Assembly: GCA_902798825.1 (NCBI GenBank)
Contig: CADBYI010000031.1
Coordinates: 1 to 60,592 of the forward strand
Direction of reading: 5' to 3'
Length of the DNA stretch: 60,592 bases
DNA from: an uncultured Eubacteriales bacterium
Lineage (GTDB): Bacteria > Bacillota > Clostridia > Christensenellales > CAG-138
Part shown: positions 47,945 through 53,420 of the stretch, one piece after another
How positions within the stretch are numbered: position 1 is the first letter of the stretch
Layout: every line of letters begins with the position of its first letter
Notes under the pieces: model-generated
Seen by the model: the letters and a program-made list of their open reading frames with translations, nothing else
Database searches by the model: none
What the model was told of the DNA's origin: nothing
Made by a program: the position numbers and the translations under genes

Positions 47945-49534
47945 CTATCCCAATGTCACTACCCCATCGAATCGGGAAAGCTTGTCCAGTGTGAACGTAT
48001 GAGATACGACCAGCAGAAGCTTCCCGCGGATAGCCAACAGCATATCCTCTACCCTGCTTGCGGTATCCTCGTCTAGGTTGGCCAGCGGTTCATCCAAAAT
48101 CAGTATATCCGTATCCCGTAGCAAGGCGCGCGCCAGACAGATGCGCTTCTTTTCACCACCGGACAGATTGCCGCCGCCCTCCATGATCTCCGTATCCAGC
48201 GCCTCCCGGCTGGCGAACGAGTCGAGGCGCAGGTTCTTCAACAACTCAATCAACCTTTCATCCGGCACCTCTTGATACATGGTCAGATTGTTCCTAAGCG
48301 TATCGTGGAACAGAATAGCCTCCTGCCGCATGACGGTCATGCAGTCGTAGGTAGTATTATAGGCGCCGATGGGCGTTCCGTCCACCACAATCTCCCCTTC
48401 GTCAGCATCGTAATACCGAAGCAGCAGGTTGACCGCCGTGGTCTTTCCGCAGCCGCTGGGACCCTGGATCAGGTATCGTTTCCCAACTTCCGCCCGAAAG
48501 TTGAACTGTTGCAGAATGGGTACACCTTTTTGATACGCGAAGGAGACCTGGCGATAGCAAATCCCCTGGTGCACCCGTTGCAGTCGCTTATCTGAGGGAA
48601 CTGCCGCCTCTTTCCCTATGAACTGCTCCATTTCCCTGCAGGCAGGCTGAATCGCCACCAGCTGCCGTATGATCTCAGCCAATGAGATCAGTGGATAGGA
48701 CAGCAGATCGATCATGCCGATAGCCACAAAGAAATCCCCGGCGCTGAACTCACCCCGCAGCACTAGCCAGCTGGCGCATGCCAGTACAATGAAGTAGGAC
48801 AGATAGGACATCAGCGTGGTGATGAGCTGCGATACGGCACCCAGCATACTGTCCTGAAGGAGCTTATCCATGGCAAGGCCATTGGAATCCCGGAACTGCC
48901 GCAGGATATGCCCCTCAATAGAGAAGTTCTTGATGATTTCGAATCCATTCAACCAGTTGTTGACCCTGGAGATGTTTTGCTCCACTGCCTTAAGATATTC
49001 CGACTGTGCTTTCTGCAAGCGCTTTTCGATCAATTTCGGCAGATAAAGGGGCGTGGTCAGCAGTACGATGGTCAGTGCGGCTAATCGCCAGTCCAAAAGA
49101 AACAGCGCCGCGCTGACGAAGGCGATGGTGCATACCACGTCAAAAAACATGGGCATCATACGAAACCTTCGGTCCCGAATAGCGTCGATGTCGTTGGTCA
49201 GCTTCGCAATGTAGGCGCCCTGCGGCTGCTCTTTAAACGAAACGTAGGTCCGACGTAAAATGCCTTCGAAGATATCGCTTTTCAAAAGCCCTGTGCACCC
49301 CACGACGAACCTGGCGCTGCAGCGCTTGTACAGAAAAAAGGATAGACACTCGCCCAGGATAAATGAGATCAACAGGATAGTGTATCTGATCGTTGACGTC
49401 GTATCTCCGGCAATAGCGTGATCCAGCACATCGCCCTTGAAGAATTGCAGCGCCACTCCGAAAGCGTGGCTGATGAGGATGCAAACGAGTGCGCCAATAA
49501 AGCCGGCGCGATTGCGCTTTTCGTATTCTTTCAT
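47945..49534 (-). CDS. ABC exporter half-transporter with attenuator leader
   Basis: A 529-residue fused permease-ATPase of the MsbA/LmrA/bacteriocin-exporter type, expected to work as a homodimer. Six membrane helices fill about residues 1-300. The ATPase has GPSGCGKTT near 365, GGGNLSGGEKKR near 457 and ILILDEPLANLDED near 480. Base composition is visibly less GC-rich than in its neighbours, hinting at acquisition. Its AGGAGG site is the fourth arm of an erm-like attenuator with an 8-residue leader peptide. That makes drug-induced expression the leading hypothesis; the exported compound is unknown. Confidence 0.88.
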   Translation of the reverse strand: MKEYEKRNRAGFIGALVCILISHAFGVALQFFKGDVLDHAIAGDTTSTIRYTILLISFILGECLSFFLYKRCSARFVVGCTGLLKSDIFEGILRRTYVSFKEQPQGAYIAKLTNDIDAIRDRRFRMMPMFFDVVCTIAFVSAALFLLDWRLAALTIVLLTTPLYLPKLIEKRLQKAQSEYLKAVEQNISRVNNWLNGFEIIKNFSIEGHILRQFRDSNGLAMDKLLQDSMLGAVSQLITTLMSYLSYFIVLACASWLVLRGEFSAGDFFVAIGMIDLLSYPLISLAEIIRQLVAIQPACREMEQFIGKEAAVPSDKRLQRVHQGICYRQVSFAYQKGVPILQQFNFRAEVGKRYLIQGPSGCGKTTAVNLLLRYYDADEGEIVVDGTPIGAYNTTYDCMTVMRQEAILFHDTLRNNLTMYQEVPDERLIELLKNLRLDSFASREALDTEIMEGGGNLSGGEKKRICLARALLRDTDILILDEPLANLDEDTASRVEDMLLAIRGKLLLVVSHTFTLDKLSRFDGVVTLG

Positions 49535-49539
49535 ATGTA

Positions 49540-49618
49540 CCTCCTATGCTCTGTGCGATAGAAGGAATGCAAGATATTTTCCTTCTATCGTTTAGAAGGA
49601 AAAGCGCCGTTTGACCAT
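49540..49618 (-). promoter_or_regulatory. Erm-type translational attenuator of the ABC exporter
   Basis: Reading the minus strand 5' to 3', arm 1 (49603-49593, TTTTCCTTCTA) lies in the leader reading frame. Arm 2 (49587-49577, TAGAAGGAAAA) pairs with it over 11 bp. Arm 3 (49567-49556, TTCCTTCTATCG) can instead pair with arm 2 extended (CGATAGAAGGAA) over 12 bp. Arm 4 (49547-49540, ATAGGAGG), which is the exporter ribosome site, pairs with CCTTCTAT of arm 3 over 8 bp with one G-U. Forms 1:2 plus 3:4 hide the ribosome site; form 2:3 frees it. Confidence 0.65.
49592..49618 (-). CDS. Leader peptide MVKRRFSF of the exporter attenuator
   Basis: Eight codons and a TAA stop, with GAGGAG (49625-49630) six bases before the ATG, the best spacing possible. 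Codons 6-8 and the stop form arm 1 of the attenuator. K3-R4-R5 fits the Arg/Lys-x-Arg/Lys pattern at which macrolide-bound ribosomes are known to stall, as in the ErmD leader. A ribosome halted there would cover arm 1. The peptide is too short for similarity evidence; support comes from its ribosome site, its position and the alternative pairing. Confidence 0.55.
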   Translation of the reverse strand: MVKRRFSF

Positions 49619-49642
49619 GAAAGACTCCTCTATGACTTTGAT

Positions 49643-49648
49643 AGTATA
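49643..49648 (-). promoter_or_regulatory. Probable -10 element for the attenuator transcript
   Basis: TATACT on the minus strand lies 25 bases before the leader ATG. No good -35 hexamer is present at 16-18 bases; the upstream sequence is T-rich. Confidence 0.45.
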
Positions 49649-49685
49649 AGTTTACTATATGTGGTGAAAAAACGCAACCGCAGAT

Positions 49686-50504
49686 TCAAAGCGCTTCTTT
49701 GGGACAGTGTTTGACGCATTCCATGCAAAGGATACACTCCGTACCGTTTATCCTGTTTCTTGAATTGTCGGTGACGTCCACGTCCATGGGGCACACGCGC
49801 TTGCACTTGCCGCAGGACACGCATTTTGTCGTATCGCATTTGATCCTGAAAAGGGAGAAATAGCTCATGGGCTTCAGAAACACGGTGATGGGGCAGATAT
49901 ATTTGCAGAACGCCCTATTGTCCTTCATCACGAACGCAAGGAGAATGCCAACGGCATAATAGAGGGCGTTGCCGACGATGAAAGCCCAGAACATGATCCG
50001 TTCGATGTTCCCAACATGGGCGAAAAACAGGGCTCCAACAAACAGCAGCGAAACGGCAAATGTGATATATCGAATCCACCCTATTTTTTTTCGGGGCTGC
50101 TTCGGCACCGTATAGGGGAGAAAATCAAGGACCATGGCGGTCCAGCAGGCATAGCCGCACCAGCCCCTTCCGAACAGTAGGGGCCCACCTATCTTGGCTA
50201 CCGCATAATGGATGGTGGCGGCTTCAAAGACACCGGTGAACAGATAATACCAAAAGCCTTCGATCTGCATATTTTCCCCGCAGATCAAGCCCAAATACAC
50301 CAACATATATAGGCCGACCAGCAATTGGACGATACGTCGGGCGTGCTTGTATTGGCGGATAAACAGAAAGATGCCTAGCGCGATCGAACAGCCGATATAG
50401 CTGAAGTTGATGAGATAGAAGACATTTCCCTTGGTCAGCCATAACACAATGGCAATCGTTTCGAAAACGACAAGCATCAGGATCGGCAAGCGGTATTTTT
50501 TCAT
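49686..50504 (-). CDS. NapH/YccM-like membrane 4Fe-4S protein
   Basis: A 272-residue membrane electron carrier. About six helices are interrupted by GRGWCGYACW near residue 115 and NRAFCKYICPI near 200, the paired cysteine motifs of the NapH/NosR/RdxA group. Two C-terminal ferredoxin clusters follow: CVSCGKCKRVCP near 230 and CILCMECVKHCP near 258. It probably moves electrons between a quinone or flavin pool and an unknown partner. No partner reductase is next to it. It ends 68 bases before the exporter leader on the same strand, with no clear terminator. Confidence 0.87.
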   Translation of the reverse strand: MKKYRLPILMLVVFETIAIVLWLTKGNVFYLINFSYIGCSIALGIFLFIRQYKHARRIVQLLVGLYMLVYLGLICGENMQIEGFWYYLFTGVFEAATIHYAVAKIGGPLLFGRGWCGYACWTAMVLDFLPYTVPKQPRKKIGWIRYITFAVSLLFVGALFFAHVGNIERIMFWAFIVGNALYYAVGILLAFVMKDNRAFCKYICPITVFLKPMSYFSLFRIKCDTTKCVSCGKCKRVCPMDVDVTDNSRNRINGTECILCMECVKHCPKEAL

Positions 50505-50550
50505 ATTCGAAGCTCCACAAAGGTAGTTTTTTTATCGACTCGTTGCTGCT

Positions 50551-50627
50551 ATGCGGCTGATGGGATTTGCGGCCCTTGCCGCGGGAAAAGCCCCACTGGG
50601 GCTTTTCCTGATCGCGGCTTCAAATCC
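50551..50627 (-). repeat. tRNA-Leu-matched palindromic repeat, distal unit C
   Basis: Seventy-seven bases matching unit D with one mismatch, 105 bases further from the tRNA. It contains the copy of the tRNA-Leu 3' end and the 47-base hairpin core (50572-50618), but its far arm is degraded (AATCCTCAAATCG). Confidence 0.82.
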
Positions 50628-50655
50628 TCAAATCGCCCCTGTACCCTTTAGCACC

Positions 50656-50740
50656 ATGCGGCTGATGGGATTTGCGGCCCTTGCCGCGGGAAAAGCCCCA
50701 CCGGGGCTTTTCCTGATCGCGGCTTCAAATCCCACAGCCG
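50656..50740 (-). repeat. tRNA-Leu-matched palindromic repeat, proximal unit D
   Basis: Read in the tRNA direction: an arm CGGCTGTGGGATTTGAA (near-complement of the tRNA-Leu 3' end), then a 47-base core (50677-50723) with hairpin GAAAAGCCCC/GGGGCTTTTC. An arm CAAATCCCATCAGCCGCA follows, identical over 18 bases to the tRNA 3' end including the discriminator. The core is homologous to that of the tRNA-Ser unit B. Confidence 0.85.
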
Positions 50741-50746
50741 TCCTTT

Positions 50747-50791
50747 ACCAAAAGGATGACCACCCCGCAGAGGGGTGGTCATCCTTTTGGT
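50747..50791 (-). terminator. Terminator hairpin that includes the tRNA-Leu CCA end
   Basis: A perfect 20-bp stem, ACCAAAAGGATGACCACCCC with its complement, begins with the discriminator A and CCA of tRNA-Leu. The descending arm ends in TTTTGG. Confidence 0.85.
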
Positions 50792-50870
50792 GCGGCTGAT
50801 GGGATTTGAACCCATAAGCTTTCGCCGACAGATTTTAAGTCTGTTGTGTATGCCGTTCCACCACAGCCGC
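50788..50870 (-). tRNA. tRNA-Leu(TAA), with encoded CCA
   Basis: Acceptor GCGGCTG pairs with CAGCCGC. The anticodon stem is ACAGA/TCTGT with loop CTTAAAA (anticodon TAA, reads UUA), there is a class II variable arm, the T arm contains GTTCAAATC, and CCA is encoded. It is followed by a 20-bp terminator hairpin and two repeat units that copy its 3' end. Confidence 0.96.
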
Positions 50871-50915
50871 GCTATGGAGGTATTGTACAGGCACGAAGCG
50901 CCCTTTGTCAAGGGA

Positions 50916-51494
50916 TCAAAGGCTCAACAGCGCCCCGATCAGGCCCCCGGCTGCCAGGAAGAGGACGGGATGGACCTTCTTGAGCTTGGGCAAAAGCATC
51001 AATGTGACCAGCACGCCATAGAGGATCAGCGACACCACATCCACATGGAACGGAGCCACGCTGATGCTAAGCGAAGAACGGATCACGGACCAGCCCGCCG
51101 CCGCCACCAGGCCCGCCGCCGCAGGCCGCAGAGCGTCGAAGGCGTCGTTCACCAGCTTGGATCTGCGATATTTCTCAAGGCCCTTGGCCACCATCACGAT
51201 CACCGCGATCTGGGGGGAGATCAGGGACAGAGTGGCGATGACCCCACCCAGCAGGGCCCACCCCTGGCCGTAGGGAGACAAAACGCTGTACCCCACATAG
51301 GTGGCCGCATTCACCCCGATGGGACCGGGGGTGGACTCCGCCACAGCGATGATGTTGGCCAGCTCCTCCCCCGTGAGCCAGCCGTATTTGGCGATCATAT
51401 CCTGCAAAAACCGGATGCAGGCCATGCCGCCGCCAACGGCCATAAGGCCAGTTTTCATAAATTCGTAGATCAGCAACAGGATGGTCTTGATCAT
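50916..51494 (-). CDS. Chromate transporter family protein, second half
   Basis: A 192-residue ChrA-family membrane protein of the short, half-size kind that works in pairs. The family hallmark GGGMACIRFLQDM lies near residue 22, and ESTPGPIGVNAATYVGYS near 53. About five membrane helices are predicted. Its start overlaps the stop of the other half by ATGA. Chromate efflux is the named activity for the family, but in anaerobic gut bacteria the real anion may differ. It is the last gene of the nfeD operon. The ATG at 51494 is preferred over an upstream GTG that overlaps its own ribosome site. Confidence 0.87.
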   Translation of the reverse strand: MIKTILLLIYEFMKTGLMAVGGGMACIRFLQDMIAKYGWLTGEELANIIAVAESTPGPIGVNAATYVGYSVLSPYGQGWALLGGVIATLSLISPQIAVIVMVAKGLEKYRRSKLVNDAFDALRPAAAGLVAAAGWSVIRSSLSISVAPFHVDVVSLILYGVLVTLMLLPKLKKVHPVLFLAAGGLIGALLSL

Positions 51495-52018
51495 GCCTTC
51501 TTCCACCTCCCGAACAGGATACCGAACACCGCCGCCATGAGCACCAGCCAGACGGAATCCAGCTTCACCACTGTCAGCAGCAGAAAGGCCACGATCACGA
51601 TGATCCAGCTGACGTAATCCTTGGCTGCCTTCTTGATCAGGCGCACGATGGTCACCGTCATCAGGGCGGCCACGGCCACCCGGACCCCGGCAAAGATGTG
51701 CTGGACCAAGGGGTATTCCATCAGATTCTGGAGAACGGCGGCGATGATCGTGATGACCAGCAGCGGCACCGTCACCACCCCCAAGGAGGCCACGATACCC
51801 CCCAGGGTCTTGCCCCGTTTATAGCCCACGAAGGTGGCGGAGTTGATGGCGATGACGCCGGGGGTACACTGAGCCAGGGAGAAATAGTCCAGTACCTCCT
51901 CCTCCGTACACCACTTCTTGTTGTCCACCAGCTCCCGTATGAGCAGCGGCAGCATGGAGTATCCGCCGCCAAACATGACGGCGCCGATCTTTACGAATGT
52001 CACATACAGCTCCAACAT
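51491..52018 (-). CDS. Chromate transporter family protein, first half
   Basis: A 175-residue ChrA-family protein, the partner of the next gene. It has the N-terminal signature FVKIGAVMFGGGYSMLPLL near residues 6-24 and SLAQCTPGVIAINSATFVG near 45, each matching the corresponding segment of its partner, as expected for a duplicated fold. About five helices are predicted. It starts right at the stop of the glycosyltransferase gene, so it is translationally coupled to it. The pair probably forms a heterodimeric anion transporter; the substrate is not established. Confidence 0.87.
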   Translation of the reverse strand: MLELYVTFVKIGAVMFGGGYSMLPLLIRELVDNKKWCTEEEVLDYFSLAQCTPGVIAINSATFVGYKRGKTLGGIVASLGVVTVPLLVITIIAAVLQNLMEYPLVQHIFAGVRVAVAALMTVTIVRLIKKAAKDYVSWIIVIVAFLLLTVVKLDSVWLVLMAAVFGILFGRWKKA

Positions 52019-52019
52019 A

Positions 52020-53420
52020 TCACACCACCGGCCAACCGGCCACATACATTCCCAAATAGACCATAGACCCCGCGATACATAGCAGGGACAGCAACAGATT
52101 GACGAATCGATTCCTCGTCAAACGCATCAGGGCAATTATGACGGGAAAACAGCAAAACATCTGTCGCGGCGCGTCCATGACCCCCGTCTGACTGTAGATC
52201 ACCGCAAAGCTGATCATAAAGTACGCCAGATAGCTGACCCGAATCTCCTGCCCCTTTGCGAGCATCAGCACCAGGCTGCCCAAGGCGAACAGGAGGCTGG
52301 GCAGATACAAGCCGAACGCCTGATCGAACCGAAACGTGCGGTAGGCATCGACGAGTCGTTCCGTTTGGGCGCCGCACACCCGATAGAACAGGGCAAACTC
52401 GCTGTCATACAGCTCTTCCAGATACTCCGCATAGGCAAAGAAGCTGCCCCCCACCACCCGATTTAGCACGAGGAACAGGATGAATCCCAGAGGAACCAGA
52501 ATGAATGTAGCACCGATCAGGGTCTTTTTCAAGTAGAATCGCCAGGTGACCTCCTTCAGCGATCGATACTCCTTGGTCATGGCGTTGAAAAACTCAAGCA
52601 GCAAAGGAATCACCAGAACTATTCCTATCCGATCCGTCAGCGCGGCCAGGGACCCAAAAAGGGCGCTGATGACGAACCGATGTCGCTGGGCACTGTAGAT
52701 GCTCAGGAGGGACAGCAGCAAAAAGGTGCTGGCAGGGATGGTGCAGGTGAGCAGAAAGCTGGGCGGCAGGATGGAATAGTACCACAGTGCGCGCACGGCG
52801 GACCGCCGATCCAAATCGTGCAGCACCAGCAGATATAGCACGATCCCGCTCGCTATGGCGTTGATGTTGGAAAGAAAGAACCCGGCTCGGATGCTGGACA
52901 GATACACCGGACTGATCAGGCGGACGATCAGCGGGTAGAAGGGCGGGAACAGAAGGTTGTAATACCGGCCGGCAGCCCCCACCGTTTCCACGGCGTACCC
53001 CTTGTTGGCGATGGAGATGATACGTCCGGCATAAAGATGGTCCGCCCATATGTGCTGAATCTCGAAAACGGTCTCGGCGAAGCCGTTGAGATACAGACTC
53101 CACAAAAAGGCCCCCAGCATAAAGAGGCCGCGGCCAACGGCCAGCAGAAGAACCAGCCGCAGCAGTTCCCTGGTGCCGATGGTGCTGGTCCGTTGAACGG
53201 TAGAAAGGGCTTTTTCCTGGTCCACTCCCAGCAGGAAATCGAAAACCTGGGGGACGAACCGAATGTACAGCAACGCAAACAGCAGCAGTACGAGGCCGCC
53301 TACGATCATGGATTCCAAGTAAAGGGGTGTATCCATGACGATCCACAGACCGTACAACACGCACAATACGGCCAGAGGAACGACGATGAATACACCCTTA
53401 GTTACATCGTTACGCTGCAT
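52020..53420 (-). CDS. Multi-pass membrane glycosyltransferase, PIG-V/GT-C type
   Basis: A 466-residue protein with about eleven membrane helices and the layout of GT-C glycosyltransferases that use polyprenyl-phosphate sugars. HIWADHLYAGRIISIANKGY near residue 143 and YNLLFPPFYPL near 175 fall in the first large loop, where catalytic residues of the PIG-V/mannosyltransferase group usually lie. It begins immediately after the stop of the preceding gene and abuts the first chromate-transporter half. A sugar donor might come from the GT2 enzyme at 14705-15634, though nothing links them directly. Confidence 0.7.
   Translation of the reverse strand: MQRNDVTKGVFIVVPLAVLCVLYGLWIVMDTPLYLESMIVGGLVLLLFALLYIRFVPQVFDFLLGVDQEKALSTVQRTSTIGTRELLRLVLLLAVGRGLFMLGAFLWSLYLNGFAETVFEIQHIWADHLYAGRIISIANKGYAVETVGAAGRYYNLLFPPFYPLIVRLISPVYLSSIRAGFFLSNINAIASGIVLYLLVLHDLDRRSAVRALWYYSILPPSFLLTCTIPASTFLLLSLLSIYSAQRHRFVISALFGSLAALTDRIGIVLVIPLLLEFFNAMTKEYRSLKEVTWRFYLKKTLIGATFILVPLGFILFLVLNRVVGGSFFAYAEYLEELYDSEFALFYRVCGAQTERLVDAYRTFRFDQAFGLYLPSLLFALGSLVLMLAKGQEIRVSYLAYFMISFAVIYSQTGVMDAPRQMFCCFPVIIALMRLTRNRFVNLLLSLLCIAGSMVYLGMYVAGWPVV

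Follow-up and report, generated by a model that had tools for sequence, protein, structure and literature searches.

The ermC attenuator follows a four-arm scheme. In ermC and ermD, a ribosome arrested on a short leader brings about refolding that frees a ribosome-binding site downstream (PMC5418344). The gene that these attenuators control encodes a 23S rRNA methyltransferase. Macrolides and ketolides arrest the ribosome at the +X+ motif (Arg/Lys-X-Arg/Lys) when the P site is occupied by the X codon, and an intact +X+ is described as required for arrest by ketolides and dispensable for arrest by erythromycin (PMC8298421). ErmDL, the ErmD leader peptide, carries Arg-Leu-Arg at residues 6 to 8 (PMC8298421). 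The +X(+) sequence is enriched under erythromycin (PMC6238534), and in both sources +X+ marks arrest by erythromycin and especially by telithromycin (PMC6238534, PMC8298421). The locus that we describe here differs from ermC and ermD in its target, which is an ABC exporter, and in its leader, which is no longer than 8 codons and carries the motif at codons 3 to 5.

Mef(E) is a major-facilitator pump and not an ABC exporter, the exporters encoded by cmlA and fexA also belong to the major-facilitator family, and the ABC-F protein of lmo0919 acts on the ribosome and is not a membrane exporter. Like our locus, mef(E)/mel of Streptococcus has an eight-residue +X+ leader (MTASMRLR) before a macrolide efflux gene, but it is described as having a Rho-independent terminator and as working by transcription attenuation (PMC4335068). 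cmlA and fexA resemble our locus in the translational attenuation of a drug export gene (PMC5418344); they differ in that they encode phenicol exporters and respond to another inducer. The attenuators of vmlR, msrD, and lmo0919 provide leader-based, drug-induced control of an ABC-F protein (PMC9226507, PMC5418344), with transcription and translation attenuation combined at vmlR (PMC9226507). As these sources describe them, the vmlR and msrD products act on the ribosome and, unlike the exporter studied here, are not membrane exporters. The closest precedent is bmrB-bmrCD of Bacillus subtilis, which has, as is predicted for our locus, a translated leader and an ABC multidrug exporter that answers to ribosome-targeting drugs; there, control is ribosome-mediated but transcriptional, a terminator lies inside the 53-residue leader ORF, and two half-transporter genes follow (PMC4191407). 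In our locus, the leader is 8 codons long, no terminator-like site was found, and the half-transporter gene stands alone.

Among the open-access literature matches listed, we found no case that combined an erm-type translational switch, an eight-codon +X+ leader, and a lone ABC exporter. A sequence-only reading of the locus knew of no described attenuator of this kind on a stand-alone exporter half-transporter. Among the matches listed, that holds for the combination but not for the target, since attenuator control of an ABC drug exporter has been described before (bmrB-bmrCD, PMC4191407), and the novelty is therefore narrower than was suggested. The question of precedents is thus partly settled: the switch logic and the target class are each known already.

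The window, by which we mean the whole stretch of DNA analyzed, comprises 60,592 nucleotides of contig CADBYI010000031.1 (assembly GCA_902798825.1) from an uncultured Eubacteriales bacterium. Its relevant features are as follows.

47945..49534, minus strand: ABC exporter half-transporter of 529 amino acids (Pfam ABC_membrane and ABC_tran), with its ATG at 49534
49540..49547, minus strand: arm 4, ATAGGAGG, which forms an 8-bp helix with arm 3
49556..49567, minus strand: arm 3, which pairs with arm 2 (12 bp) or, through 49558-49565, with arm 4 (8 bp)
49577..49590, minus strand: arm 2, whose partners are arm 1 (49577-49587) or arm 3 (49579-49590), from folding and covariation
49592..49618, minus strand: leader ORF MVKRRFSF* (+X+ motif, Lys3-Arg4-Arg5), read from the sequence, of a leader type common to 18 genomes
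49593..49603, minus strand: arm 1, within codons 6 to 8 and the stop codon, which forms an 11-bp helix with arm 2
49625..49630, minus strand: leader ribosome-binding site GAGGAG, read from the sequence, six bases ahead of the leader ATG
49643..49670, minus strand: weak promoter-like site TTTTCA-16-TATACT (consensus scan, 9/12 matches)
50788-50870, minus strand: tRNA-Leu, about 1.3 kb from the exporter

The leader reads ATG GTC AAA CGG CGC TTT TCC TTC TAA (49618..49592, minus strand), and 84 bases separate its start from that of the exporter. The leader MVKRRFSF and its GAGGAG site, which the sequence-only reading had proposed, were borne out base for base, as was the placement of arm 1 in codons 6 to 8 plus the stop. 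The pairings that it had given, with AGGAGG buried, were recovered at the same lengths: the longest gapless helices in the window are 11 bp (1:2), 12 bp (2:3), and 8 bp (3:4), and arm 4 contains the exporter ribosome-binding site AGGAGG at 49545..49540 (minus strand). When we folded the leader, as the same reading had advised, a 131-nt stretch formed 1:2 plus 3:4 at -30 kcal/mol (z -2.62), which 1 of 200 shuffles equaled. Removal of arm 1 from the window RNA led to the 2:3 fold (z -3.57; 1 of 200 shuffles equal), in which arm 4 was released from arm 3. A search of Rfam 15 returned no family at gathering score; one match (up to E 1) fell below gathering and lay on the other strand.

To survey related genomes, we used protein searches for the exporter, which are blind to the leader. 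They found the exporter in 4/12 genus, 13/103 family, and 10/396 order genomes (overlapping sets), for a total of 16 loci, the window included. The sequence-only reading had pointed to homologous exporters as the place where the leader and arms should recur or else fail to; both were present upstream of the exporter in 15 of the 16 protein-search loci. No leader was found upstream in the remaining one, L021, whose exporter is 40% identical and which we left out of all structure counts. RNA-model searches of 103, 391, 299, and 297 genomes (overlapping sets, stricter filters) yielded 19 distinct genuine sites, of which 17 lie directly before an exporter start and 2 are relics; L035, L039, and L040 were added in this way. 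The 17 sites before an exporter, together with L024, make up the 18 intact leaders. At the family level, exporter and attenuator were each found in 13 genomes, and 12 genomes have both. When the L040 exporter was used to search the proteins of the whole class (E 1e-85), only the loci of L040 and the window were recovered, and the sole match in a separate scan of genome contigs was a distant ABC protein.

Fifteen of the 18 exporters are open over their full length. The exporter of L020 has a stop after residue 148 and that of L039 is missing an internal segment that corresponds to about residues 223-336 in the window protein, each behind an intact leader, and the L035 exporter is cut by the contig end. 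The arms also vary. Arm 4 is divergent in L022, L023, and L039, which have a weaker site of the AGAAAGGA/GAAGGA type, and the longest 3:4 helix of L022 and of L024 flanks the ribosome-binding site instead of covering it.

Several other sites were examined along the way. L038 (G043:C29:1287-1379) is its genome's second attenuator copy, with an intact leader (MTKRRLSF*); its exporter has decayed, and the remnant matches over a piece of 46 residues. L041 (about 1501-1575) is an attenuator relic, reading MVKYRLSF without a stop at codon 9; it has no exporter match and precedes the start of an unrelated gene. We rejected L052 to L054 as antisense echoes of the arms, and the weak RNA-model matches L044 and L047 to L050 proved on reading not to be this attenuator. 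In L044 (1501-1569), from another class of the phylum, an AAGGAG site accompanies a short ORF, MDKFRKPF..., that contains a Lys-Phe-Arg motif; this ORF overlaps a terminator-like hairpin before a der-like GTPase gene, possibly by chance. The idea that the attenuator also stands ahead of other genes was dropped, the RNA-model sites belonging to this exporter or being relics.

We then compared the leader peptides. The Lys3-Arg4-Arg5 of the window had been read beforehand as an Arg/Lys-X-Arg/Lys motif, and Lys/Arg-X-Arg is indeed kept at codons 3 to 5 in 18/18 intact leaders; these leaders are related by descent, and the count does not stand for 18 independent events. Codon 3 is Lys in 15 and Arg in 3, whereas codon 4 varies (Arg in 10, Tyr in 4, Leu in 4) and codon 6 takes nine different residues. 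Arg5, present in all 18, is written CGG (8 leaders), CGC (4), AGG (3), AGA (2), or CGT (1). Such codon changes with the residue kept are the stronger point, more so than the count of 18/18. Since codons 3 to 5 lie outside the arms, the constraint acts on the peptide. Codons 7 and 8, inside arm 1, encode Ser-Phe except for Ala7 in L024 and Leu8 in L018. Two leaders, those of L024 (MIRLRSAF*) and L040 (MNRLRKSF*), have Arg-Leu-Arg, as in ErmDL and Mef(E)L. By its position in the sequence, and with an assumed footprint, the +X+ motif is placed so that an arrested ribosome would cover arm 1.

Covariation of the arms, which the sequence-only reading had put forward as a check, was seen both for the OFF structure (1:2 plus 3:4) and for the ON helix 2:3. 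We used an alignment of 15 sequences (A2), including L035 and L040; L022, L023, and L039 were left out because MAFFT misregisters arm 4, as seen for L022 and L023 in an earlier alignment (A1) that includes those two and is without L035 and L040. In A2, 91.9% of the cells of the OFF structure are paired, and 6 pairs and 13 cells are changed on both sides, values reached by 3 and 0 of 500 shuffles that ignore the relatedness of the sequences. Slid controls gave at most 2 pairs and 2 cells. Helix 2:3 has 92.8% of cells paired, and both sides have changed in 3 of its pairs and in 6 cells (26 and 0 of 500 such shuffles) against at most 1 pair and 1 cell in the slid controls. In A1, such two-sided changes were seen in 6 pairs and 11 cells of the OFF structure (1 and 0 of 500) and in 2 pairs and 4 cells of helix 2:3 (79 and 0 of 500). 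In none of the four cases (A1 and A2, OFF and 2:3) did the count of further pair types rise above that of the shuffles.

Individual changes can be followed through the arms. Leader bases 26, 32, 60, and 73, one column per arm, read A-U-A-U in the window and G-C-G-C in L013, L014, L015, and L035, and the change at base 26 is that between the stop codons TAA and TGA. L013, L014, and L015 do not form a clade of their own in the exporter tree, where supports at that point are moderate and from which L035 is absent. In L024, two U-A pairs of 1:2 have become C-G and G-C, and arm 3 follows one of them; in L018, a U-A pair of 1:2 has become C-G. Bases 30 and 62 change from G-C to A-U in L040, and this pair supports 2:3 alone, because base 30 sits in the loop of 1:2.

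According to the sequence-only reading, a ribosome paused at codons 4 and 5 would mask arm 1. We folded each of the 18 loci under an assumed ribosome footprint: no base from -14 to +15, counted from the start of the codon in the P site, was allowed to pair. In the window, the mean openness of the exporter site was 0.30 for the naked RNA; it was 0.78 when codon 4 occupied the P site and 0.00 when codon 8 did. In agreement with the masking claim, a ribosome with codon 4 in its P site was predicted to open the site further than one with codon 8 there in 18/18 loci. Openness on codon 4 ranged from 0.20 to 0.94, and on codon 8 it was at most 0.17 in 17/18 loci. In a control with 100 linker shuffles per locus, at most 1 of 100 did equally well in 16/18 loci. 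The other two switch weakly: L014 reached an openness of 0.20 on codon 4 (10/100 shuffles equal), and L016 kept 0.51 on codon 8 (6/100 equal). When 25 exporter bases were included, the naked window RNA showed a competing fold in which bases of the exporter take part; the resting state would therefore depend mainly on ribosomes completing the leader.

We conclude that the attenuator is real and conserved and not a product of chance. We think it probable that the 84-base region is an erm-type translational attenuator in which macrolide or ketolide arrest at Lys/Arg-X-Arg opens the exporter site. Its working as a switch is strongly predicted, and the inducer is likely a macrolide or ketolide. Without drug, ribosomes would reach the leader stop, arms 1 and 2 would be covered or would re-form, and the 3:4 helix would hide AGGAGG. 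With drug, peptidyl transfer would fail once codon 4 has entered the P site, while the A site awaits Arg5. The arrested ribosome would then cover the RNA to roughly leader base 25-26, that is, arm 1; arm 2 would pair with arm 3, and AGGAGG would be freed. The exporter is predicted to expel the inducing drug or its relatives.

An identical switch could answer to another inducer, such as a lincosamide, a streptogramin, a pleuromutilin, a phenicol, or an unknown peptide. The anatomy by itself names no drug, and bmrB-bmrCD is described as answering several ribosome drugs, including lincomycin (PMC4191407). We regard this as rather unlikely, given that 18/18 leaders keep Lys/Arg-X-Arg while X and codon 6 vary and that the sources cited tie +X+ to arrest by erythromycin and especially telithromycin (PMC6238534, PMC8298421). 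Control might also be exerted on transcription, in the style of bmrB-bmrCD or mef(E)/mel, where the leader logic is equal and mef(E)L (MTASMRLR) has a +X+ too (PMC4335068). A run of four T lies between leader and exporter in 6/18 loci, the window not among them. A run of five T occurs there in 0/18, however, a simple scan of the window's minus strand found no terminator-like site, and the ribosome-binding site of the exporter itself serves as arm 4. Because no terminator was found, we predict control at translation, and we consider transcription attenuation very improbable.

Amino acid starvation would stall the ribosome at codons 3 to 5 for want of charged Arg or Lys tRNA and so open the exporter. 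The window codons there are all Lys or Arg, and a starved ribosome would mask arm 1 equally. Starvation attenuators usually bear runs of one residue, but here codon 4 is Tyr or Leu in 8/18 leaders, codon 3 is either Lys or Arg, and six leaders have a single Arg codon. Arg5 is written with five different codons, and the gene controlled is an ABC exporter and not an arginine gene. Starvation control therefore seems highly unlikely to us. That the arms are a plain stem-loop or a chance arrangement without regulatory role is hardly credible: the arms are short, and their core columns are nearly invariant, which leaves many pairs uninformative, but conservation in 18 genomes of several families, covariation across four arms, and the constrained leader codons contradict it. 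Induction of the exporter by macrolide or ketolide arrest remains the reading that we prefer.

The exporter carries Walker A, signature, and Walker B motifs. Among the best 25 of 175 NCBIfam models (MsbA, CydC, and others), all scored under cut-off. We found no partner half beside the gene, the next-nearest ABC match on the contig being about 15 kb off and an adjacent half-transporter pair being absent; for this reason the exporter likely acts as a homodimer. We infer that it pumps out the inducing drug. Relatives abound in public protein sets, with 698 at E up to 1e-60 among 7,998 scored. Clostridia bacterium and Lachnospiraceae bacterium were the two source names among the 120 listed, which makes an uncultured member of Clostridia the likely host.

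To trace how the unit has spread, we compared an exporter tree, built without L035, with the flanks of up to 1.5 kb at 16 loci (without L035, L039, and L040). Genera g1, g13, and g22 are intermixed in the tree, and L022, L023, and L039, from three other families, form one clade inside the family's exporters. Neighbors are common to L009 and L010 only; the flanks of L013 and L020 have one 26% match in common. In the window, the setting includes tRNA-Leu and low G+C: a dip to 0.48-0.53 at 48.5-51 kb, against 0.54-0.65 elsewhere in 44-54 kb (1-kb windows). Because of the tree intermixing, the unshared flanks, and this tRNA-Leu and low-G+C setting, the data suggest that leader and exporter may have moved together by horizontal transfer. 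No plasmid copies of the exporter were found at E 1e-60, and no viral-contig copies were found by two protein scans and one DNA pattern.

The surroundings of the exporter have features of their own. The G+C dip (48500-51000) spans part of the exporter and a NapH-like gene beside tRNA-Leu, which hints at acquired DNA. Between tRNA-Leu and this NapH-like ferredoxin gene, at 50551-50732, lie two 77-bp direct repeats, 99% identical and 105 bp apart from start to start, each of which holds a GGAAAAGCCCC-type palindrome. Two neighboring genes at 50916-52045 are of the chromate transporter type, under NCBIfam cut-offs.

If our reading is true, an erm-style translational switch has been joined to an ABC exporter, a pairing absent from the open-access matches listed. 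Bacteria that we know here chiefly through metagenomes would then be able to sense drugs in an inducible and sequence-specific way. The switch is small and self-contained and could be tested in the tube, and the conserved +X+ makes a sharp prediction of which drugs are active. If it is confirmed, searching for the leader would reveal inducible efflux where the exporter itself scored under cut-off in the best 25 of 175 NCBIfam models. More tentatively, and with doubt prevailing over confidence, we suggest that an old, horizontally traveling unit of leader and exporter in uncultured Clostridia may be a dedicated +X+ (ketolide-type) sensor, whose hosts would have been long exposed to a natural +X+-arresting ribosome inhibitor exported by the lone, translationally controlled ABC exporter. 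The strict upkeep of +X+ would point to such exposure because arrest by ketolides requires the motif and arrest by erythromycin does not.
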